Shown piece after piece: positions 740 through 46,280 of a stretch of DNA of 49,168 nt. This stretch comes from a virus. The number at the start of each line of letters is the position of its first letter. Position 1 is the first letter of the stretch. Made by a program: the position numbers and the translations under genes. The notes under the pieces were generated by a model. The model ran no database searches. It was not told the origin of the DNA and worked only from the letters and a program-made list of their open reading frames with translations. Location of the stretch: IMG/VR virus record IMGVR_UViG_3300030107_004118, positions 3,987-53,154 of that record; one strand, written 5' to 3'.

Positions 740-1064
740 AGATACAAGCATAAACATAATGGTCTGCGTCAGGACAATTACTAGCTATAGGAAACCAATC
801 CTCTGCATTTGATTGTGCTGTAGTTATACTACTGTATCTTAGAGTACCATAAGTACTATTCTTAAATTCTGATAACAGTGGATCAGACATGAATCCTTCA
901 TACCATGTCCAGATGGTATTAATCTTAGCTGTATCACCTGCAGCTTCTAATAGTCTTATCTTTGAAGCATCATACCATAGTACTGGTAATCCTATTGCTT
1001 TAGAATAATCGCTGAGTGTGTTTTGTAGTGCTTTATAGTCCATAGGAGTTATGTTAATCATCAT
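699..1064 (-). CDS. Hypothetical protein, 121 residues
   Basis: This is a small acidic, aromatic-rich protein that I do not recognise. It has no signal peptide, membrane segment or metal-binding pattern. It is the last gene of the minus-strand adhesin block. Its start overlaps the end of the upstream PKHD-type oxygenase by 11 bases, which argues for translational coupling. Its 3' end overlaps the convergent plus-strand oxygenase by 41 bases. It begins with two adjacent ATG codons, so the start may be one codon later. Position suggests an accessory to the tail-fibre or oxygenase genes, but nothing in the sequence proves it. Confidence 0.6.
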   Translation of the reverse strand: MMINITPMDYKALQNTLSDYSKAIGLPVLWYDASKIRLLEAAGDTAKINTIWTWYEGFMSDPLLSEFKNSTYGTLRYSSITTAQSNAEDWFPIASNCPDADHYVYACIFNESGALAWENVG

Positions 1065-1731
1065 AAGTTGATGAGTACTGTCTTATTAATTTATATCTTA
1101 TCTGGTTAAAGTATGTAGTAGGGTCAATATCATGTGTCCATTTATTACTATCAATAGAAGTTAAACAATAGTATTGTAGATCCTGATAATCATATAACAA
1201 CTCACGAATGAATACATCTTGTATTAGAGTTTGTAACCATGTAACACATACTCTTCTTTCTCCTTTAGTCACAGGTGTTACCTTGTGCCATAAATTTGGA
1301 TCAAATAATATACATTCACCTTTGTTAAGTCTATAACTATATGTTTCAGATCCAAATCTAACCTGAAGATCACCACCATCGTATTCATCAGGACTATTGA
1401 TTGCTGTTATCATCACATAATCTGATCTCAGATTCCTATTCATAATAGGCAGATCATTATGAAAATCATAGTGACCTCCATCACTCTCAGTATACTTAAC
1501 AAACATTGGTCCTGTTGTTCTCTTCACACAGAGAGCTGATATAAAAGAAGACTTCCATAAATTGTCTTCCCATAACTCAATAGGACTATCATCATCCTTT
1601 AATTGTTGAGTTCTCTTTATTTTTCTGTTATCAGTACCAGTATTACTACCGTCTATAAATTCACCTTCATCAAAATATTTTTGGATATTATCACAAACGG
1701 CTGGATCCAGCCACATCATTTTACGAATCAT
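1054..1731 (-). CDS. PKHD-type 2OG-Fe(II) hydroxylase
   Basis: The 225-residue protein has the prolyl/lysyl-hydroxylase-like signature: H91 and D93 in FHNDL, the strand motif EYDGGDL (about 116-122), distal H149 in LWHKVTPV, and R159/R160 as the 2-oxoglutarate anchor. PKHD-type enzymes of this size are known from bacteria (the YbiX group) and T4-like cyanophages; they hydroxylate side chains, but the phage substrate is unknown. It lies immediately downstream of a tail-fibre-assembly-like gene and collar-fibre genes, so a virion fibre is a plausible substrate (inference). It ends 11 bases inside the next gene. Confidence 0.85.
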   Translation of the reverse strand: MIRKMMWLDPAVCDNIQKYFDEGEFIDGSNTGTDNRKIKRTQQLKDDDSPIELWEDNLWKSSFISALCVKRTTGPMFVKYTESDGGHYDFHNDLPIMNRNLRSDYVMITAINSPDEYDGGDLQVRFGSETYSYRLNKGECILFDPNLWHKVTPVTKGERRVCVTWLQTLIQDVFIRELLYDYQDLQYYCLTSIDSNKWTHDIDPTTYFNQIRYKLIRQYSSTYDD

Positions 1732-1733
1732 AT

Positions 1734-2609
1734 TTACAAACCTGCAGCAGCTTTAGCTTCATCTAATTTTTTCTGATCTTCTTCTATCTGAGCAATTAAT
1801 ATCTCGACAGGATCAGTCAAGTGTGATATAGATGGTACATTAAAATGTGGTGCAGGTCTTGAGAACTTCAACGCTAAATTAACATACTCATGCATTATAT
1901 AATCCATAGAATCCATATCAGCAGTAGTACTTGATGCATCTGGTGGGAATTGAATGTACTGTTCATCAGTTGCTAGATACCCAACACCAGCATTATGAGG
2001 TTGGTAATGCTTTTTGTAGATAGCTGGATCAATAGGAATATTAATCTTAGCTAGCACATGTATACCACTCTCAAATGCATCAGGCAATTCTCTAACCTTT
2101 GCTCTATAAGTTTTCCACTGTACTTTCTCTTCAGCAGTAACAGGTGCATCTTCAAGCATTGTCCAATCAGATGTATGTAAGAAGAAATCTCTCCATGCTT
2201 TTATTCTTGTTAAGCTTAACCCACTCTCTCTTTCAATTATTCTATTAAACTTCTGATCTATATCATCTATCTGTACTGATAGTATAGCATCAAATGCTTC
2301 TTTTATCTTATCAACAAAATCCTTTGCTGTTGTTAAGTTTGGTTCATCAAATACATAATCCTTCCAGAAATACTCACCAGTAGTATGATTACGAACATAC
2401 TTACTCTTGTTGCAAGTATATGATTCAGTTGGATTATCAAAGTACTTAAATGTCTGTAACCTATCCTTATCAGTACTCCATAAAGGATCTAAGATAGGAG
2501 CAATATAAGTAGTCCAATCAATATCTGATATTGTTTTGGTTGTAATACCACGAGTTATTACTCTGTTAGTACCACTAATAATTAATGAGTTATTATTGAG
2601 CGTAGACAT
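1734..2609 (-). CDS. Tail-fibre-assembly-like protein with XkdW-type segment
   Basis: This 291-residue protein contains, at about residues 130-180, the pattern of phage tail-fibre assembly proteins: RIKAWRDFFLHTSDWTMLED, then a short linker, W..YR..VRELPD. The SDW...DAP....W..YR..+R+.P consensus is a hallmark of XkdW/gp38-like chaperones or fibre-tip proteins. The N-terminal part (repeated I/T stretches, then WTTYIAPILDPLW) is not recognised. It sits directly after an oxygenase and three collar-domain fibre genes, which supports a role in fibre folding or as a fibre-associated protein. There is no signal peptide. The remaining domains are unknown. Confidence 0.6.
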   Translation of the reverse strand: MSTLNNNSLIISGTNRVITRGITTKTISDIDWTTYIAPILDPLWSTDKDRLQTFKYFDNPTESYTCNKSKYVRNHTTGEYFWKDYVFDEPNLTTAKDFVDKIKEAFDAILSVQIDDIDQKFNRIIERESGLSLTRIKAWRDFFLHTSDWTMLEDAPVTAEEKVQWKTYRAKVRELPDAFESGIHVLAKINIPIDPAIYKKHYQPHNAGVGYLATDEQYIQFPPDASSTTADMDSMDYIMHEYVNLALKFSRPAPHFNVPSISHLTDPVEILIAQIEEDQKKLDEAKAAAGL

Positions 2610-2614
2610 TTTTA

Positions 2615-3316
2615 TTATACGGGTTGTTGATAGAACCAGCCTGTTACAATATATTTAGTTCCTTTGAGAACCAAATTACCTCTATGAGTGTGTGTATAAC
2701 CAGCAGGCCATATTACTATTGTTCCTGTGGTAGGTTTAATCCTTCTCTTTTGATAGAAGAACTCAGTCTCACCACCATCAAAATCTTCATTAAGATATAT
2801 CATCCATGTAGCAGTTCTATTTGCTTCATTGTATGATCCATCTTCATGATGAAATACATGGTAACCACCTCCCTCTGGAGTCTGTTGCATCTTAACATGC
2901 CAAGACGTTAAAGGAACTGACCCCAGTGAATCATATACTGTACAATAATGGTTTAATGTAGACTGTAAGTATTGATTGACTTGAGCTGAAAGAGTACCAC
3001 TTAAACAATCTAACATACATCCAAGATCATTACGACCTAATGTTCTTGTCTTGAACTGAGAGTTACCAGGCATAGCATGTGCTTCACCTGAATATGGATC
3101 GGTAAGAGGCATGTCTCTCTCATTATTAGTGATGAGTGCTTGCTGTTGCCAAGTGTGGAAGAAATTAATAAGATCGTTACAAAAAGCAGAGGGAACAAAG
3201 TTCTCCCATACTCCTATGAAATCATCAAACTGTCCTTTATCTCCCATTAAGGTCATGGGTACTATAGGTGTAACCATCTCACAATAGTTAGATGCACCCG
3301 ATGATGTTATCGCCAT
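2615..3316 (-). CDS. 2OG-Fe(II) oxygenase, prolyl 4-hydroxylase-like
   Basis: The 233-residue protein carries a metal site in HVFHHEDGS (H156/H157 with E158/D159), the strand motif DFDGGETEF (about 178-186), and a distal THTHRG (H209/H211) followed by KGTKYIVTGW, where lysine rather than arginine may hold the co-substrate. This is the classic C-terminal prolyl 4-hydroxylase layout. Which adjacent His and acidic residue bind iron is ambiguous. It lies between the tail-fibre-assembly-like gene and the collar-fibre genes, the same context as the PKHD enzyme downstream, and is spaced only a few bases from each neighbour. Confidence 0.85.
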   Translation of the reverse strand: MAITSSGASNYCEMVTPIVPMTLMGDKGQFDDFIGVWENFVPSAFCNDLINFFHTWQQQALITNNERDMPLTDPYSGEAHAMPGNSQFKTRTLGRNDLGCMLDCLSGTLSAQVNQYLQSTLNHYCTVYDSLGSVPLTSWHVKMQQTPEGGGYHVFHHEDGSYNEANRTATWMIYLNEDFDGGETEFFYQKRRIKPTTGTIVIWPAGYTHTHRGNLVLKGTKYIVTGWFYQQPV

Positions 3317-21095: not shown

Positions 21096-21671
21096 CTATT
21101 TAGATGGTGTAAAGTAGTTAAAGTTTATCACACACTTAAATCTTGCGTCAAGTTGACTAACACCTCTGTGTTTTAATGATGATGGAAAAGTAATAAATCT
21201 GTTAGCACGACACTCTACTTTAGAACCATCTTCAAATTCGGTATACCCATCACATGTATTCATATAAAAGATACCTGTGGTCATACTATCACAATCATTA
21301 TCAGTATGAAACTCACTATAATAACGGTCAACACCACTTACTTCATTACTAACCTTTTTGGACTCATCCATCCATACATTAAGTCCCACCTTTAAAGGTT
21401 CAAGATTAGCTTTAATTCTGTAGATACCAATAAGACTCAATCTGGACAATATTGGTAGCATTAAAGGAAATTTTTCAGATCTTGTAAATATACGAGCATC
21501 ACTATTCGTCTCATAAAAAACATGAGTGAACTGATAATTGTTAAAATCATCTTCTTCTACCTCTTTTACCTTCTGCTCATTATAATACCAAGGTATACCA
21601 CCAAAAAAGACTTGCTCTCTAAGTTGACCAAACTCTACATTAGTTAAGAAATTATCATGTAAATTTATCAT
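21096..21671 (-). CDS. 2OG-Fe(II) oxygenase-like protein, 191 residues
   Basis: Motifs in order are FHTDND (H122 and D124 as metal ligands), GIFYMNTCDGYTEF (the strand before the core), LKHRG (distal H168) and an arginine at R177 in DARFKCVINF. This is the 2-oxoglutarate/Fe(II) oxygenase order, and the length fits small phage members. The N-terminal half (WYYNEQ, THVFYETNSDARIF) resembles the substrate-lid region of phage oxygenases. It is the last of three oxygenase genes joined by 4-base ATGA overlaps (21668-21671 and 22255-22258), indicating coupled translation. The substrate is unknown. Confidence 0.8.
   Translation of the reverse strand: MINLHDNFLTNVEFGQLREQVFFGGIPWYYNEQKVKEVEEDDFNNYQFTHVFYETNSDARIFTRSEKFPLMLPILSRLSLIGIYRIKANLEPLKVGLNVWMDESKKVSNEVSGVDRYYSEFHTDNDCDSMTTGIFYMNTCDGYTEFEDGSKVECRANRFITFPSSLKHRGVSQLDARFKCVINFNYFTPSK
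21097..21103 (-). promoter_or_regulatory. Late-promoter-like CTAAATA box
   Basis: The minus strand reads CTAAATA about 20 bases before the ATG at 21077, inside the last codons of the oxygenase gene. T4-type late promoters are TATAAATA; the same CTAAATA variant recurs in front of several units in this window. It would start a transcript carrying the 43-residue gene, the giant fibre and the collar genes. Confidence 0.5.
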
Positions 21672-22258
21672 TGGTGTAAATATGCAGATATAATGTACTT
21701 TTTACCTTTATTGGGAGTTACTCCTCTATGGATGCAATTCCATGTGGATGGAAACATAACCAGTTTACCAGTAGAAGGTACAATCTTCCTACCACTAATG
21801 AATTCGGTCTCCCCACCGTCAACATCATTCAAATAAAATAACATAGCGATCATTCTAGGAGATTTTCTATCTATCACAAAATCATCATGCCAATGAAAAT
21901 ATCCACCTGGTTCATATGCCTTCACATTATAACCATGATCATCAAACTTTGCATTATAAAATGGATTAGGGGTCGGATCAAGCTTATTGAAAATTTCAAA
22001 GCAATGATCTATGTAGTTCTGTATATTCTCACTAACACTCTTAGAAATTATATCATCCAAATCTTTCCAATCTTCCAGATCTGTTATATACAAGTCTATA
22101 GAAGTCTTTAAACTGTTTTTAACTATTCTACTACTATTATCAGAATTACCTATAAGACCAAGAGCTTTACGATCATCACCTTCAAATTTTTCTATTATTT
22201 GTTCACATACTTCCTTACTTAAAGCAGTTTCATTAACATAGATAAAATCCTCCATCAT
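21668..22258 (-). CDS. Prolyl 4-hydroxylase-like 2OG-Fe(II) oxygenase, 196 residues
   Basis: This is a textbook member: YFHWHDDF supplies H124 and D126, FYLNDVDGGETEF is the conserved strand before the core, MFPSTWNCIHRGVTP gives the distal H177, and KKYIISAYLH supplies the basic co-substrate residue. The N-terminal half (residues 1-110) is helical and begins DFIYVNETALSKEVCEQIIE, the usual opening of these enzymes. It is the middle gene of the three-oxygenase cluster, overlapping both neighbours by four bases. It probably hydroxylates a protein; the target is not visible. Confidence 0.9.
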   Translation of the reverse strand: MMEDFIYVNETALSKEVCEQIIEKFEGDDRKALGLIGNSDNSSRIVKNSLKTSIDLYITDLEDWKDLDDIISKSVSENIQNYIDHCFEIFNKLDPTPNPFYNAKFDDHGYNVKAYEPGGYFHWHDDFVIDRKSPRMIAMLFYLNDVDGGETEFISGRKIVPSTGKLVMFPSTWNCIHRGVTPNKGKKYIISAYLHQ

Positions 22259-22806
22259 CTCATCATATCCATTGCTTCTCTGTCCATTTCAAGATTCATA
22301 GAAAGAACAATTCTATTAGTGTTTGTAGGAAGTACCTGATGTTTTACTATACCAGGAAATATAACAAGAGCACCATTCTTAGGTACTATAGATTTACCAC
22401 AAAACTTAAGAGGAGAAGATCCTTCTTCACAATCAACAAAATAAACAGCAGCAAAAACTGATGGCCAATGATCATGTTCTGCAGTATGATTCCCCTTCTC
22501 ATACATCATAGCCCACATATTATAAACCATATAAGGTTCTGGTGGTTTATGACCAAAATAATCTTCTGATATAAAAGAACATGCACTACTAGTAAACATA
22601 CACAAATCATCAAAATAATTTGTCTCTTTATGTAAACTATAACTAGAATGCCATCCTGTATTCTGTTTCATCAGATCATGATTCTGAGGATTCTCTTCCC
22701 TTATCTTCAGAATAGATTCTTTAAATTGTTTGTTCTGCTGAATATCAGGATACATCACATACCAAAAAGGTATGTCTTGTCCTGATATAAAATCTTTTTT
22801 CAGCAT
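22255..22806 (-). CDS. Putative 2OG-Fe(II) oxygenase of the PF13759 type
   Basis: The 183-residue protein differs from its two neighbours. It has the HTAEHDHWPSVFAAVYFVDC pattern (metal ligands around H111 to H113), GALVIFPGIVKHQV with distal H156, and R165 followed by IVLSMNLE. This fits the putative 2OG-Fe(II) oxygenase family of small, often phage or marine bacterial, proteins. It is the first gene of the oxygenase cluster and starts 24 bases after the tmRNA terminator. No clear ribosome-binding site precedes the ATG. The reaction and substrate are unknown. Confidence 0.8.
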   Translation of the reverse strand: MLKKDFISGQDIPFWYVMYPDIQQNKQFKESILKIREENPQNHDLMKQNTGWHSSYSLHKETNYFDDLCMFTSSACSFISEDYFGHKPPEPYMVYNMWAMMYEKGNHTAEHDHWPSVFAAVYFVDCEEGSSPLKFCGKSIVPKNGALVIFPGIVKHQVLPTNTNRIVLSMNLEMDREAMDMMR

Positions 22807-22829: not shown

Positions 22830-22851
22830 AAAAAGGGGGAATCTCACCCCC
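22830..22851 (-). terminator. Rho-independent terminator of the tmRNA unit
   Basis: On the minus strand a five-base GGGGG/CCCCC stem with a seven-base loop (TGAGATT) is followed by TTTTT. It lies directly after the 3' end of the tmRNA coding piece and ends 24 bases before the next ATG. Confidence 0.85.
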
Positions 22852-23105
22852 AATTAGTCATTTGGGTAACAAGGCTGACTTAACCCCGATCACTCCTTAA
22901 ACAGTCGCTAGTTCAGCGATGCGAGTGAATGCTACGATGTTATTCGCAGCAGGTGTATCTGTTTTAGCAGATGTTGTGTGCTTATCCAAGCAGGTTTCAG
23001 TCCCGATCCTTATACCCTGTCGAAGCCATGGCATCCCCTAGCTATGGAGATGAGGGGAGTCGAACCCCTGTCCAGAATGTAGGTGTCGTCACCTATCCTC
23101 AAAAG
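22852..23105 (-). ncRNA. ssrA: Permuted two-piece tmRNA
   Basis: Read on the minus strand, the acceptor piece comes first. It ends with a T arm (AGGGG, TTCGACT, CCCCT) and the acceptor strand CATCTCC plus discriminator A at 23045. Six bases later, at 23038, the coding piece starts GGGGATG, which pairs with CATCTCC over seven bases (one G-U), followed by the tmRNA signature GGCTTCGACAGGG. This 3'-piece-before-5'-piece order is the permuted arrangement known from cyanobacteria. The tag frame is at 22897-22947: GCG resume codon, ANNIVAFTRIAELATV, TAA within a TCGCT/AGCGA hairpin. The 5' end of the acceptor piece (near 23105) and the 3' end of the coding piece are estimates. No CCA is encoded. 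tmRNA rescues stalled ribosomes together with SmpB, which is not in the window. Confidence 0.92.
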
Positions 23106-23109
23106 AGGA

Positions 23110-23181
23110 TGCCATCAGAGGGATTTGAACCCCCGACCTTGGCTTTACAAAAGCCCTGCACTACCACTGTGCTATGATGGC
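23110..23181 (-). tRNA. tRNA-Thr (anticodon UGU)
   Basis: The minus strand folds as a standard tRNA. The acceptor GCCATCA pairs with TGATGGC; the D arm is GCAC-AGTGGTA-GTGC; the anticodon arm GGGCT-TTTGTAA-AGCCA reads TGT at the anticodon (the outermost anticodon-stem pair is a mismatch); the T arm is GGGGG-TTCAAAT-CCCTC. The discriminator is A, and CCA is not encoded. It lies about 5 bases upstream of the tmRNA acceptor piece and is probably co-transcribed with it. Its anticodon reads ACA, a codon favoured in AT-rich phage genes. Confidence 0.95.
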
Positions 23182-38948: not shown

Positions 38949-39830
38949 TTAGTCTTCCTCTGCTAAACTTGCAAAGTAACTAAGTGCGTCATCATCACTT
39001 GTCTCCTTCTTGTTGAACTTAGGTGCAGAAGATGCTGCTACCTTCTCAACAGGTACTGGTTCAAACTCTTCCTCTTGTTGTCTCTGTACCACAGCAGGTG
39101 AACTGTTGAGAACTGTATTTAAACGAGTCTCTAGTTCCTCATATGTTTTGAACTGATCTTCAGCAGTGAATGCTGCTAAACTGTGTTCTTGTTTGTATGT
39201 TGCTTCTAGTTCAGCATCATCAGAGCTTAAAGCACTAACAGCATCGAACTCGGAACTATCATAGTTCCAGAAACCAGCAACAGTCTTGATCTTTAACTTA
39301 AAGTTTGCTCCTTCCCAGAAGTCAAACACATTTACAGGAGTCTCGTCTTGAAACTCTGGCTGCATTGCAGCCATTACCTTGTCGAAAATCTTCTTACCGA
39401 ACTTGTACAAGAATACCTTACCTTCATTTTCAGGGTTCTTAGGATCTTTAACAACGACAATGTTCGTGTAGTAAGTAAGCTTACGCTTCTGCTTACGAGC
39501 AATGTCCTTGTCTGATTCGTGACCACTATTCCACAACTTACGATTAACTTCACCAACAGGGTCTTTTTTGTTTTGTGTCGTTAAACTGTTTTCGATGTAC
39601 CAACCGCCAGGTCCTTGGAAAGCATGTGAATATAACTTTGCCCAAGGAAGGTCTTCACCTTCTGGGGGTGGGAGAAATCTGATAACAGCGTAACCATTAC
39701 CTGTATTATCTAACTCTGGTCTCCAGAACCTCTCGTCTTTACCGCCACCTGTTTGAGTGGACTTCTCTATCTCTTTCTGGAGAAAATCAAAATTTGCTTG
39801 AGATTTTCGTTTTAGATCTGCGAACGTCAT
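38949..39830 (-). CDS. Single-stranded DNA-binding protein gp32
   Basis: The 293-residue protein has the T4-type gp32 layout: N-terminal basic region (DLKRKSQANFDFLQKEI), core with RFWRPELDNTGNGYAVIRFL, PPEGEDLPWAKLYSHAF, YIENSLTT, KLTYYTNIVVVKDP, KVFLYKFGKKIFDKV, and an acidic tail (DDDALSYFASLAEED). It protects ssDNA and organises replication, repair and recombination. The cysteines of the T4 zinc-binding loop are absent here. It has its own promoter and a structured leader of about 235 bases, similar in principle to the autogenous control of T4 gene 32. Confidence 0.93.
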   Translation of the reverse strand: MTFADLKRKSQANFDFLQKEIEKSTQTGGGKDERFWRPELDNTGNGYAVIRFLPPPEGEDLPWAKLYSHAFQGPGGWYIENSLTTQNKKDPVGEVNRKLWNSGHESDKDIARKQKRKLTYYTNIVVVKDPKNPENEGKVFLYKFGKKIFDKVMAAMQPEFQDETPVNVFDFWEGANFKLKIKTVAGFWNYDSSEFDAVSALSSDDAELEATYKQEHSLAAFTAEDQFKTYEELETRLNTVLNSSPAVVQRQQEEEFEPVPVEKVAASSAPKFNKKETSDDDALSYFASLAEED

Positions 39831-40066
39831 ACGGATTTTTTTAGATTTAATTGGATTTTGTTTTTGGGGTGGGAGATAGGAATAATGTATACCTACAAGT
39901 ACAGGGCATTTCTACATAAGTAAATTTTTACTGTACTGCACGAGTCCTGTCTGGTTAAACAGTTCTGTTGTTCCCAACAGCGAGCACCACCTCTGACTCA
40001 TCACCTTAACTAGACCATTGCCAGCAAGTTTGTTCAGTCACTCCCGTATCAGGTAGCGAACCCGAT
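39831..40066 (-). promoter_or_regulatory. Structured 5' leader of gp32
   Basis: About 235 untranslated bases separate the promoter from the ATG. On the minus strand I see a hairpin at the very 5' side (TATC-G-GGT, loop TCGCT, ACC-T-GATA), a CTGTT/AACAG hairpin, and a GTACAG/CTGTAC long-range stem near the 3' half. T4 gp32 represses its own translation through a leader pseudoknot. A similar function is an inference; no pseudoknot was resolved. Confidence 0.5.
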
Positions 40067-40070
40067 ATAC

Positions 40071-40669: not shown

Positions 40670-41371
40670 TTATCCTCTAATAGTTTGCTTTTTTCCATGT
40701 GTATTATTGTATTCGTCTATGTATTTGAGAAGAGTAGTTAAGTACTCCCTCTTTAAAGGACGAACTTCAACTTGTGTGTCTCCGTTTTCGCAAGCAACTA
40801 TAGTTACTAACTGCTTAACATTAAGATCATATCTTTCCTTGAGCATACATGCATATGCACACTCTTGAACGAAATAATCATAAAGATACTCTACCTTCTT
40901 TGGTTCAGCAGATGTTTTAAAATCTATAATTGATAGTTCCCCATCAAATTCTGCTATACAATCAACACGCCCTGCTAATTTTAATGTATCAGAATACAGA
41001 GCAGCTTCTTGTAAGTATATTTTATTTATGCGGTCTAAGCTTGCCCTAGAATGATGGAACATCACTACAGGTAGCGGAAACTTTTTATAATCATCAAGGT
41101 CTAAAACATTATTAATGTAGTCCTCGACTATGGAGTGGTACTTAGTACCACGACTTGTAGATCTCTTAGATATAGCGTTAGCTTTATCCTCACCTACACG
41201 CTTCCTCCACTTCATTATACCTTTCATCTTAGCAGGGTTACTACCTATTACAGTAGTGACAGAAGCATACTTTTCACCTTCTGGTGTAAGATACACTCTC
41301 TTACCAGAATCCTCATCAGTCTTTGCCTCCATCTCAATAGGAGTTATGTCTTCTAGATGTATGAAAGTCAT
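40670..41371 (-). CDS. PD-(D/E)XK (RecB-type) exonuclease-like protein
   Basis: The 233-residue protein has RecB-family nuclease motifs: GTKYHSIVEDY (H79), LAGRVDCIAEFDGELSIIDF (D137, D150) with K152 in FKTS. An N-terminal part (YLTPEGEKYASVTTVIG) precedes. A nuclease of this type is common near gp33 and gp32 in cyanophages and likely processes DNA ends. It overlaps the upstream oxygenase by four bases (ATGA). Confidence 0.82.
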   Translation of the reverse strand: MTFIHLEDITPIEMEAKTDEDSGKRVYLTPEGEKYASVTTVIGSNPAKMKGIMKWRKRVGEDKANAISKRSTSRGTKYHSIVEDYINNVLDLDDYKKFPLPVVMFHHSRASLDRINKIYLQEAALYSDTLKLAGRVDCIAEFDGELSIIDFKTSAEPKKVEYLYDYFVQECAYACMLKERYDLNVKQLVTIVACENGDTQVEVRPLKREYLTTLLKYIDEYNNTHGKKQTIRG

Positions 41372-42000
41372 TTGATTTCTATGTTAGCGGAAGATAAGTA
41401 TGGAACATATTTCATATCACCTTCTTTAGGTCTTGTATTAATACTACCATAAGGCATAGAGTTGAATGATAGTGACCATCTTTCAATTGGATCTTCATTA
41501 AGTGCTGCATGTTCCAACCACCAAGGAAATATAACTAATGTACCAGGTTTAGTATCAACATCAGAGAACTTAGAGTCATCAGAAAGAGGCATGATAGACT
41601 CATATAATCTAAACTGCACAGGATCTTTAAAAGATAATCTACCCCTATCATTAATAAAAAAGACACCACTAAAAGCACTCATAGGATGTCTATGCCAAGA
41701 TAATATAGAATTAGTTCTATACCTATTAATCCAAGAAGTTGTAACCTTAAGACCATCACACTCTAAGTTATGATATTCTTTCACCTCAGATAAACAATCA
41801 TTTATGAATTCTGATAGCTCAGGAAACAAACTCAATGCATTAGAATCTGACTGTGATACATCATAAAATTGAGATCCATTCAAAACAAAAGAACCACCAA
41901 GCTCTTTTTGATTTACTATAGATGTCTCTAAAATTTTATGTACATCACCATCCCATTCAAATGTAAATATTTTTGTTGGAAAGATTTCTAAAGTATTCAT
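41368..42000 (-). CDS. Putative 2OG-Fe(II) oxygenase, 210 residues
   Basis: The N-terminus MNTLEIFPTKIFTFEW is typical of the PF13759 group (..FPT.I...). Motifs are SILSWHRHPMSAFSGVFFIN (H103, H105), KPGTLVIFPWWLEHAALNED (H164) and ERWSLSFNSMP (R174). The ligand spacing is the WHxH version rather than the FHxD version. It is translationally coupled to both phoH and the nuclease by ATGA junctions, placing it in the replication block and not among fibre genes. The substrate is unknown. Confidence 0.8.
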   Translation of the reverse strand: MNTLEIFPTKIFTFEWDGDVHKILETSIVNQKELGGSFVLNGSQFYDVSQSDSNALSLFPELSEFINDCLSEVKEYHNLECDGLKVTTSWINRYRTNSILSWHRHPMSAFSGVFFINDRGRLSFKDPVQFRLYESIMPLSDDSKFSDVDTKPGTLVIFPWWLEHAALNEDPIERWSLSFNSMPYGSINTRPKEGDMKYVPYLSSANIEIK

Positions 42001-45154: not shown

Positions 45155-45185
45155 AAAAAAATCTGGGAAAAAAATTTCCCAGATT
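45155..45185 (-). terminator. Terminator after the DUF4278-like gene
   Basis: The minus strand has an eleven-base stem (AATCTGGGAAA/TTTCCCAGATT) with a TTTT loop, followed by a run of T. It ends the unit begun at the promoter of the riboswitch-peptide gene. Confidence 0.9.
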
Positions 45186-45211: not shown

Positions 45212-45331
45212 TTATGCAGCGACAGCTTTGCTGTGCTTTACACCACGATAAATCATGTCTGATTTAGCAGGTGCTGCTGCTTTACGTGTATCAGTGTCGT
45301 ACTTGACACCACGGTAAGTGACTTGTGCCAT
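45212..45331 (-). CDS. DUF4278-like small protein, 39 residues
   Basis: The product holds two copies of the DUF4278 motif: TYRGVKYDTD near the start and IYRGVKHSK near the end. Members of this cyanobacterial family are small and of unknown function. The start at 45331 (MAQVTYRG) is set by an AGAGGA ribosome-binding site about eight bases upstream; the longer frame has no such site and overlaps the gene before it. It follows the riboswitch-controlled peptide gene and ends at a strong terminator. Confidence 0.7.
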   Translation of the reverse strand: MAQVTYRGVKYDTDTRKAAAPAKSDMIYRGVKHSKAVAA

Positions 45332-45371
45332 TGGCTTGTCCTCTGGATAGGGTGGATAAAACCCCGTTCCT

Positions 45372-45548
45372 TCAGTCGGCATTTGCGTCCCAATCACATC
45401 CAGGTTCGGTAGCATCTTGGACAGTCTGAACAATCTCAGTGTCTGCGGTGTTACCGTACTCGCTTCTTACATCGTTTATAATATCTCGTGCTTCACCACA
45501 GGTCAAGAGACCTACAGAAGCAAAGAGTAAACTAGGTAAAAAATTCAT
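45372..45548 (-). CDS. Riboswitch-controlled small secreted peptide, 58 residues
   Basis: An ATG at 45548 opens 58 codons (TGA at 45372). The N-terminus MNFLPSLLFASVGLLTCGEA is a signal peptide, with a cysteine that could be a weak lipobox (LLTC). The mature part is acidic (RDIINDVRSEYGNTADTEIV) with a second cysteine near the C-terminus (EPGCDWDANAD). It sits directly behind a glutamine-II-type riboswitch, the arrangement known as downstream-peptide. The likely regulation is by cellular glutamine, a nitrogen signal. Function unknown. Confidence 0.75.
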   Translation of the reverse strand: MNFLPSLLFASVGLLTCGEARDIINDVRSEYGNTADTEIVQTVQDATEPGCDWDANAD

Positions 45549-45553
45549 GGGAT

Positions 45554-45604
45554 GAACGATCCGTTCCGTGTCGGCTTACTTGCGACCCTTTTGGGTTGAA
45601 CGAT
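45554..45604 (-). promoter_or_regulatory. Glutamine-II (downstream-peptide) riboswitch-like element
   Basis: On the minus strand CGTTC (45598-45602), a short hairpin ACCC-AAAA-GGGT, a conserved-looking GTCGCAAGTAAGCCGACAC and GGAACG (45562-45567) reproduce the P1 and core layout of the downstream-peptide RNA. CGTTC is repeated at 45554-45558, so GGAACG may pair with it instead, forming a GGAACG-GAT-CGTTC hairpin five bases before the ATG. The small peptide gene behind it is the usual partner. The class is recognised from memory of the consensus. Confidence 0.7.
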
Positions 45605-45611
45605 TGTGTTA

Positions 45612-45640
45612 ATACTAACACAGGTATAGTATATAGTCAA
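45612..45640 (-). promoter_or_regulatory. Sigma70-like promoter of the riboswitch-peptide unit
   Basis: On the minus strand TTGACT (45635-45640), 17 bases, and TAGTAT (45612-45617) form a good sigma70 promoter. The predicted start lies just before the riboswitch. A CTAAATA box further upstream (45675-45681) may add late transcription. Confidence 0.72.
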
Positions 45641-45677: not shown

Positions 45678-46280
45678 TTAGATTATGTCTCCAGTAGTCT
45701 TGCTGGTAACATGATCTTCTCTTACATAACTCTGCGAGAATTTAGAATTTCCGTGGTGAAGGAGTACGTTACCAGAGATGGTAGTACCTGTGTTACCAGG
45801 AACAACATGATGTGCTAACCAACTAGGAAACAAAACCATATCACCTGGCCCCAAGTGAATTGGATCATAAGTCAAAGGAGAATCATATGAAGAACCAACG
45901 ATAGGAGAATGATTCTGAATCAATTCTGCAGAAGGATTCATGAATACAGTCTTCGCACTCTGTACAGTTTCATAGATTACAAAACTCCACTGAGTCTTAG
46001 GATGTATATGATAACCTTGATAGGTATGTTTCTCATATTTATTCCTCCAAACATTCTCAAACCTCATCATCTCAAACTTATCTCTAAGTGTGTTCAATGG
46101 TTCTGATATGATTCCAGTAAGATATTCTAATGTACTACGTGGTATCTGTTTCTGTGTTTGAGAAGTTGTAAAAATTCCACTCTCCCATGAAGGTCTAAAT
46201 TCTGACTCTGGTATCACTACCTTATCAAGATCTACCTTAAGCTCAAAGAAAGGTATTGCAAAAATATCTTTACGTTTCAT
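45678..46280 (-). CDS. Putative 2OG-Fe(II) oxygenase, 200 residues
   Basis: The N-terminus (DIFAIPFFELKVDLDKVV) and the motifs YHIHPKTQWSFVIYET, LGPGDMVLFPSWLAHHVVPG (distal HH) and ISGNVLLHHG follow the PF13759-type oxygenase plan. The metal pair is read from the HIHP segment, a histidine pair in place of HxD. The C-terminal basic co-substrate residue is not clear. It overlaps the neighbouring hypothetical gene by four bases. Its 3' end carries a CTAAATA box for the unit downstream. Confidence 0.75.
   Translation of the reverse strand: MKRKDIFAIPFFELKVDLDKVVIPESEFRPSWESGIFTTSQTQKQIPRSTLEYLTGIISEPLNTLRDKFEMMRFENVWRNKYEKHTYQGYHIHPKTQWSFVIYETVQSAKTVFMNPSAELIQNHSPIVGSSYDSPLTYDPIHLGPGDMVLFPSWLAHHVVPGNTGTTISGNVLLHHGNSKFSQSYVREDHVTSKTTGDII

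Follow-up and report, generated by a model that had tools for sequence, protein, structure and literature searches.

A candidate nested glutamine riboswitch of marine cyanophages that appears to fold around a small protein gene

The locus described here appears to be a glutamine-sensing RNA switch of a marine cyanophage, folded around a small protein gene. It lies on the minus strand of the window, by which we mean the whole 49,168-nucleotide stretch analysed, itself part of a 53,154-base IMG/VR virus record whose gene content, recognized by eye, we take to be that of a T4-like cyanophage (psbA, heme oxygenase, ThyX, PhoH-like and tail-type genes). We propose, with a probability of roughly 0.78, that the locus forms one bipartite, nested glutamine riboswitch: an outer glutamine-I aptamer whose P3 helix is opened up to hold an inner, permuted copy, with an open reading frame (ORF) in the P2' loop of that copy. 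Judged from alignments of relatives, the nested pairing across the ORF is shown by covariation. Layouts with a gene in one aptamer loop, in both or in neither were found in hundreds of cyanophage sequences, and blast detected parts of the riboswitch block in 71 phage records.

Layout of the locus

The first-pass annotation, which gave no strand, had named a promoter, an aptamer, two copies of CGUUC and a GGAACG; all of these are present on the minus strand, as is the 58-codon ORF that it placed after the second CGUUC, which encodes a small conserved protein. What it had seen, however, amounts to no more than the 5' half of a larger RNA; the partner half, which it missed, lies about 160 nt further on, at 45392-45364.

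The sigma70-like promoter (TTGACT-N17-TAGTAT, 45612..45640, 9/12 consensus matches) stands directly 5' of the aptamer, with the predicted transcript start about 3 nt upstream of it. Seven promoter-like sites occur in the region compared with 1.4 expected, and among the matches listed 128 of the 197 distinct sequences upstream of relatives fit TTGACW-N16..18-TANNNT. The promoter is followed by the first CGUUC (45598..45602), the 5' strand of outer P1, which covariation assigns to a second GGAACG past the ORF, and by an A and the outer P2 hairpin ACCC-AAAA-GGGU (45585..45597), identified from P2 covariation and the layouts with a gene in this loop. The segment between this hairpin and the first GGAACG is CGCAAGUA. 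Here CGC and AAGUA (45577..45584) provide the ligand-site CG, the base g1 (45582), assigned by covariation to y at 45364, and the 5' strand of loop E; the 5' strand of P3, AGCCGACA, with a joining C (45568..45576) pairs with UGCCGACU at 45381-45374. Two A.C mismatches within P3 (45568-45576 with 45374-45382) are kept in most members, and one of them is an A-U pair in some. According to the element parse and the alignment, the first GGAACG (45562..45567), followed by x = G (45561), is one strand of inner P1'; the second CGUUC (45554..45558) is the other strand, across a 3-nt loop, GAU. The 5' strand of P2', UCCCA (45548..45552), ends with the A of the ORF start codon and pairs with UGGGA at 45392-45388.

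The P2' loop holds the ORF itself (ORF2; 45372..45548, 58 amino acids, PHROG 504). At its end lies GGGACGCAAAUGCCGACUGAAGGAACGG, the other half of the RNA, within which the ORF stop codon falls. This 3' half, UGGGA-CGC-AAAUGCCGACU-GAA-GGAACG-G (45364..45392), was assigned by covariation and the element parse and contains, in strand order, the 3' strand of P2', g2, the 3' strand of P3, the loop-E GAA, the second GGAACG and y. It also encodes the last residues of the peptide, W D A N A D, and the UGA stop (45374-45372), which is therefore read inside the outer aptamer. Further downstream are a gene for a 39-residue DUF4278-type protein (45212..45331), the likely regulated gene, and a terminator-like hairpin, AAUCUGGGAAA/UUUCCCAGAUU, followed by a run of U (45155..45185). 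The hairpin, taken as the end of the unit, was read directly in the sequence and was not flagged by a consensus scan.

Aptamer class and pairing across the ORF

Every feature that marks a glutamine-I aptamer at the sequence level is present in the outer fold. P1 (CGUUC with GGAACG) is invariant, its outer partner being fixed by the adjoining g1:y covariation; the loop-E strands are present around P3, AGUA in the 5' half and GAA (or AAA) before the second GGAACG; and all bases that contact glutamine in known structures (PMC6698751) are kept in the outer module. At the gathering threshold, Rfam gave no match at the 5' half in the window (45556-45606). A permissive scan of the same segment gave 32.9 bits with glutamine-I (cut-off 35, E 5.7e-5), with only the 5' half aligned, and 27.3 bits with glutamine-II (cut-off 33, E 2.2e-4). 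The initial annotation had named a glutamine-II aptamer and pointed to that covariance model, whose score thus falls under its cut-off; the glutamine-riboswitch type stands, but the loop-E motif AGUA/GAA, P3 and the Rfam ranking all point to glutamine-I. The glutamine-II reading was rejected for its weaker score and for its P2 helix, which is absent at full length, several P2 pairs being missing or broken in the alignment. With an ORF-free relative (L025, 8336-8422), the Rfam glutamine-I model scored 43.6 bits (cut-off 35) over the whole nest, and its alignment closes the outer pair across the nest.

Pairing across the ORF was followed at three bases: g1, the base after the first CG; x, the base after the proximal GGAACG; and y, the base after the distal GGAACG, which was absent from every search pattern. 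An IMG/VR aptamer scan gave at least 120 stretches, and among these the 5' halves from cyanophages have no loop-E GAA strand; GAA and a second GGAACG are found downstream, behind a short hairpin where there is no ORF and otherwise where the next ORF ends. Among the matches listed, g1 pairs with y in all 213 parsed elements (109 GC, 104 CG), and g1:x is C-G or G-C in 105 of 213. A looser parse, which covered more loci and made no demand on y, gave g1:y pairs in 306 of 306 distinct elements listed. Canonical glutamine-I aptamers from the same scan follow the g1:y rule within one compact aptamer (36/36 listed).

In alignment A2, which comprises 27 diverse ORF-bearing members with the ORF removed, 97.2% of cells were paired under the nested structure and no more than 46.6% when it was slid; 97 double-change cells were counted versus 28.6 in shuffles, and g1:y was GC in 14 members and CG in 13. 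P2', across ORF2, has at least 4 pairs in 46 of 47 distinct relatives (permuted mean 21.4, maximum 33; none of 5000 permutations as good), while P2, across a gene in the first loop (ORF1), is paired in 12 of 19 (permuted maximum 11). P3 also covaries across the ORF, its first pairs being AU, CG, GC or GU and its last pairs UA, GC or AU. When the two bases were mapped on an ORF2 protein tree, six changes were counted for g1 and six for y, a rough estimate of independent changes because only 2-3 of them fall on well supported branches.

The inner copy is nested in P3 and runs in circularly permuted order, GGAACG-(GAU)-CGUUC-A-P2'-CGC-AAA, with all glutamine-site base positions of the crystal structures present in that order. 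In an IMG/VR aptamer scan using a pattern without the second CGTTC, a second CGTTC followed within 24 nt in 81 of the 86 aptamers of cyanophage type listed, and four of the five without it look like chance matches; canonical glutamine-I aptamers from the same scan have one in only 2 of 36 listed. The second copy is far beyond chance. The inner long-range pair x:g2 is CG in 201, GC in 3 and broken in 9 of the 213 elements listed, and because it is nearly invariant the inner ligand site is less certain; ligand binding there is hypothetical, since the loop-E motif is absent on the inner side. The competing hairpin of the first-pass annotation is present, but it is more than a decoy: it belongs to the nested fold, is conserved there, and has a P2 and a long-range pair of its own. 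One element (L064) has an outer C:G and an inner G:C long-range pair; the inner pair is reversed relative to its relatives, which helps to tell the modules apart.

The original model held that a self-contained 5' aptamer, with the first CGUUC and first GGAACG as its P1, controls the 58-residue ORF through the competing hairpin, sequences at the ORF end being irrelevant. Its premise that GGAACG can pair with either CGUUC is borne out in every member; the 5' half alone approaches the glutamine-I cut-off, and in P-SSM2 reaches 35.1 bits; and the first GGAACG is transcribed first, such that its pairing with the first CGUUC may exist transiently. As the aptamer P1, however, this pairing is not supported, in that the long-range base fits the first GGAACG in about half of the elements listed and the second in every one, and the 5' half is without its loop-E GAA strand and P3 partner, both of which lie past the ORF. 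We consider this model quite unlikely. RNAfold calculations on the full 276-nt RNA of the window, with ligand, long-range pairs and ribosomes outside the model, gave a best structure of -73.3 kcal/mol that is not nested; the nested structure came to -64.3 kcal/mol, and a structure with the originally proposed P1 alone to -70.4 kcal/mol.

Glutamine riboswitches often occur in tandem (157 doublets and 4 triplets reported; PMC9481103), and true canonical tandems turned up in the same scan (L056, L077), so that two ordinary aptamers, each with its own P1, might flank or contain the ORF by chance. This arrangement is very improbable: the tandem assignment, g1:x with g2:y, is paired in 48% of cells in alignment A2, and among the 76 ORF-free members listed the nested energy is below the tandem one in all 76, the outer stem forms in 74 folds and the tandem in none. 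The Rfam model, as noted, itself closes the outer pair. The nested RNA could also be real but no longer sense glutamine, the kept scaffold serving translation coupling, mRNA stability or phage timing. An expression platform is not apparent in the subgroup to which the window belongs, as such a loss would allow; the retention of the glutamine-contact bases in the outer module, and of an intact adjoining g1:y pair in every member listed, makes it unlikely.

Loop genes, the downstream gene and proposed switching

The 213 parsed elements listed comprise 76 without an ORF, 88 with ORF2 only, 31 with both ORFs and 18 with ORF1 only; P-HM1 and P-SSM4 are examples carrying the additional ORF1 in the first P2 loop. 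ORF2 begins 4-6 nt past the second CGUUC in nearly all members. Among the matches listed, its stop codon begins 4 nt 5' of the second GGAACG in 114 of 119, and for 58 of 68 distinct members its start codon overlaps P2'. The two ORF families show pN/pS values of 0.36 (ORF2) and 0.38, indicative of purifying selection, and by this measure the ORF2 family is a real protein gene. Exactly two cysteines occur in each of the 114 distinct ORF2 proteins listed; together with the hydrophobic start, these invariant residues make secretion of the peptide plausible. Structure prediction for the peptide gave two helices (mean pLDDT 72, pTM 0.51), a result too weak for a structure search. ORF1 and ORF2 are distantly alike, each having a hydrophobic start, a Cys, a helical part and a second Cys, which suggests that a half-aptamer and its gene may have been duplicated as a cassette. 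Loop genes seem to come and go, as ORF1 switches between present and absent about 21 times along the ORF2 tree. Because the coding sequence lies inside the aptamer, the C-terminal codons of the peptide follow the RNA pairing, with Asn/Lys and Trp/Glu exchanges that go along with the helices, and for the same reason standard models miss the element.

The 39-residue downstream protein matched PHROG 5049 (E 3.6e-16) and scored 24.8 bits with PF14105 (cut-off 25.3, E 2.9e-5). DUF4278 is a domain shared with IF17, an inhibitor of glutamine synthetase in cyanobacteria. Among the matches listed, the next gene carries the YRG motif, and so counts as DUF4278, in 195 of 202 relatives, and a Shine-Dalgarno sequence precedes it in 203 of 208; in the upstream regions of relatives that were inspected, ORF1 has no Shine-Dalgarno sequence. 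Within the y=C subgroup, the downstream Shine-Dalgarno can be masked by the sequence that starts at y; when GGAACG and y are sequestered, this masking falls from 0.94 to 0.74. The y=G subgroup, to which the window belongs, shows no mask of this kind, and a mask common to the whole family was rejected, being confined to the y=C half. Known glutamine riboswitches turn expression on with their ligand and are associated with DUF4278 genes (PMC6316151, PMC6698751). On the basis of this precedent, the DUF4278 gene downstream and the Shine-Dalgarno data, we propose that glutamine-induced closure favours DUF4278 expression. The 58-residue peptide, which the first-pass annotation had taken as the regulated product, is unlikely to be the sole target, the DUF4278 gene further downstream being the likelier one.

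In the proposed nested riboswitch, the first CGUUC, the P2 hairpin, CGC and AGUA would close with GAA and the second GGAACG past the ORF to form the outer layer, with P3 joining the halves; the inner layer, within P3, would be the permuted copy of the glutamine site, its P2' loop filled by the 58-codon ORF. Glutamine would stabilize outer P1/P3 and g1:y as in known glutamine riboswitches, turning the DUF4278 gene on. Translation of ORF2 and closure of the aptamer would be opposed, because the closed P2' helix would hide the start codon in the loop and ribosomes translating ORF2 would unfold the RNA. The first GGAACG probably pairs with the first CGUUC and then with the second, freeing the first CGUUC for its distal partner; the mutually exclusive pairing noted initially would thus probably still matter, as a device for folding order. 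More tentatively, and as a reading that is less likely than not, we suggest that the RNA may bind two glutamines, at a standard and a permuted site sharing one P3, and switch reciprocally between the loop gene(s) at low glutamine and DUF4278 at high glutamine. If this were true, protein genes would be structural parts of a riboswitch sensor.

Comparison with known RNAs, and occurrence

Like the glutamine-I RNA (glnA motif, RF01739), the element has P1 CGUUC/GGAACG, P2 after CGUUCA, a CG[G/C] strand, AGUA and GAA, P3, a long-range pair and, as in cyanobacteria, DUF4278 downstream. It differs in that P3, rather than closing as a hairpin, surrounds a second module and a whole gene, with the P1 strands about 228 nt apart. 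With glutamine-II (Downstream-peptide, RF01704) it shares the ligand-site bases, a short peptide and DUF4278 downstream, and a picocyanobacterial setting; glutamine-II, however, forms a pseudoknot whose P2 helix is longer and encloses GGAACG. The present RNA can make just a few weak pairs there, and a peptide within the glutamine-II aptamer has not been described. Group I introns carry endonuclease genes in peripheral loops and so also place a protein gene in a loop of a folded RNA, but here there is no splicing or mobility gene, and the ligand-sensor-type RNA stays in the mRNA.

Glutamine riboswitches have been reported in cyanophages, and tandem glutamine riboswitches have been described (PMC9481103). 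Tandems likewise have two CGUUC/GGAACG sets per leader; the sets described here are instead interlocked, the outer 5' strand with the outer 3' strand, the inner set permuted and P3 shared. Phage S-CREM1 (OP535465; PMC9964418) has the same locus in ORF-free form, and its 99-base 'riboswitch glnA' annotation spans the whole nest; it was reported as an ordinary glnA RNA, with no mention of nesting, a permuted copy or genes in loops. Naturally circularly permuted RNAs, with core elements in rotated order as here, include the hammerhead, twister, tmRNA, group II introns and others, and the list contains no riboswitch aptamer (PMC10085705). The literature, as far as it was covered, contains no nested or naturally permuted riboswitch aptamer, and none with genes in aptamer loops.

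Riboswitch searches presume that an aptamer is one compact, non-coding stretch of leader. The present element would offer what looks like an aptamer circularly permuted in nature, a natural setting in which to test how a single RNA accommodates both translation and ligand sensing, and a direct handle on how cyanophages may read host nitrogen through DUF4278. A scan of genome contigs gave mostly chance matches among the matches listed, and occurrence in a host was rejected: the sole match to the nested signature in the host family (G001/L366) comes from a Prochlorococcus single-cell assembly but sits on a phage contig that carries phoH, thyX and tail-type genes, and the other 299 genomes of that family gave none.

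In many relatives, the -10 box of the riboswitch promoter lies at the middle of an inverted repeat (45606-45621 in the window) whose arms vary and which may be an operator or a 5' hairpin. It was found in 118 of 197 distinct upstream regions among the matches listed, compared with 41 when shuffled. Examples are AGGTC-TATAAT-GACCT, TGTGTTA-GTAT-TAACACA and GGTATG-CTAA-CATACC, the last of which fits the NtcA consensus GTAN8TAC. The window also contains many small ORFs (1054-3316, 21096-22806, 41368-42000 and 45678-46280) that by eye resemble 2OG-Fe(II) oxygenases or prolyl-hydroxylase-type proteins; one such ORF lies directly upstream of the riboswitch. An Rfam scan of the same phage record detected two further structured RNAs. 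A manA RNA (39866-40067, minus strand, 158.8 bits) lies upstream of an ORF at 38949-39830, which from its appearance we take to resemble a T4 gp32-type single-stranded DNA-binding protein. The other is a cyanobacterial-type tmRNA (22836-23126, minus strand, 136 bits); phages with a tmRNA and a glutamine riboswitch together have been called rare (PMC9004378).
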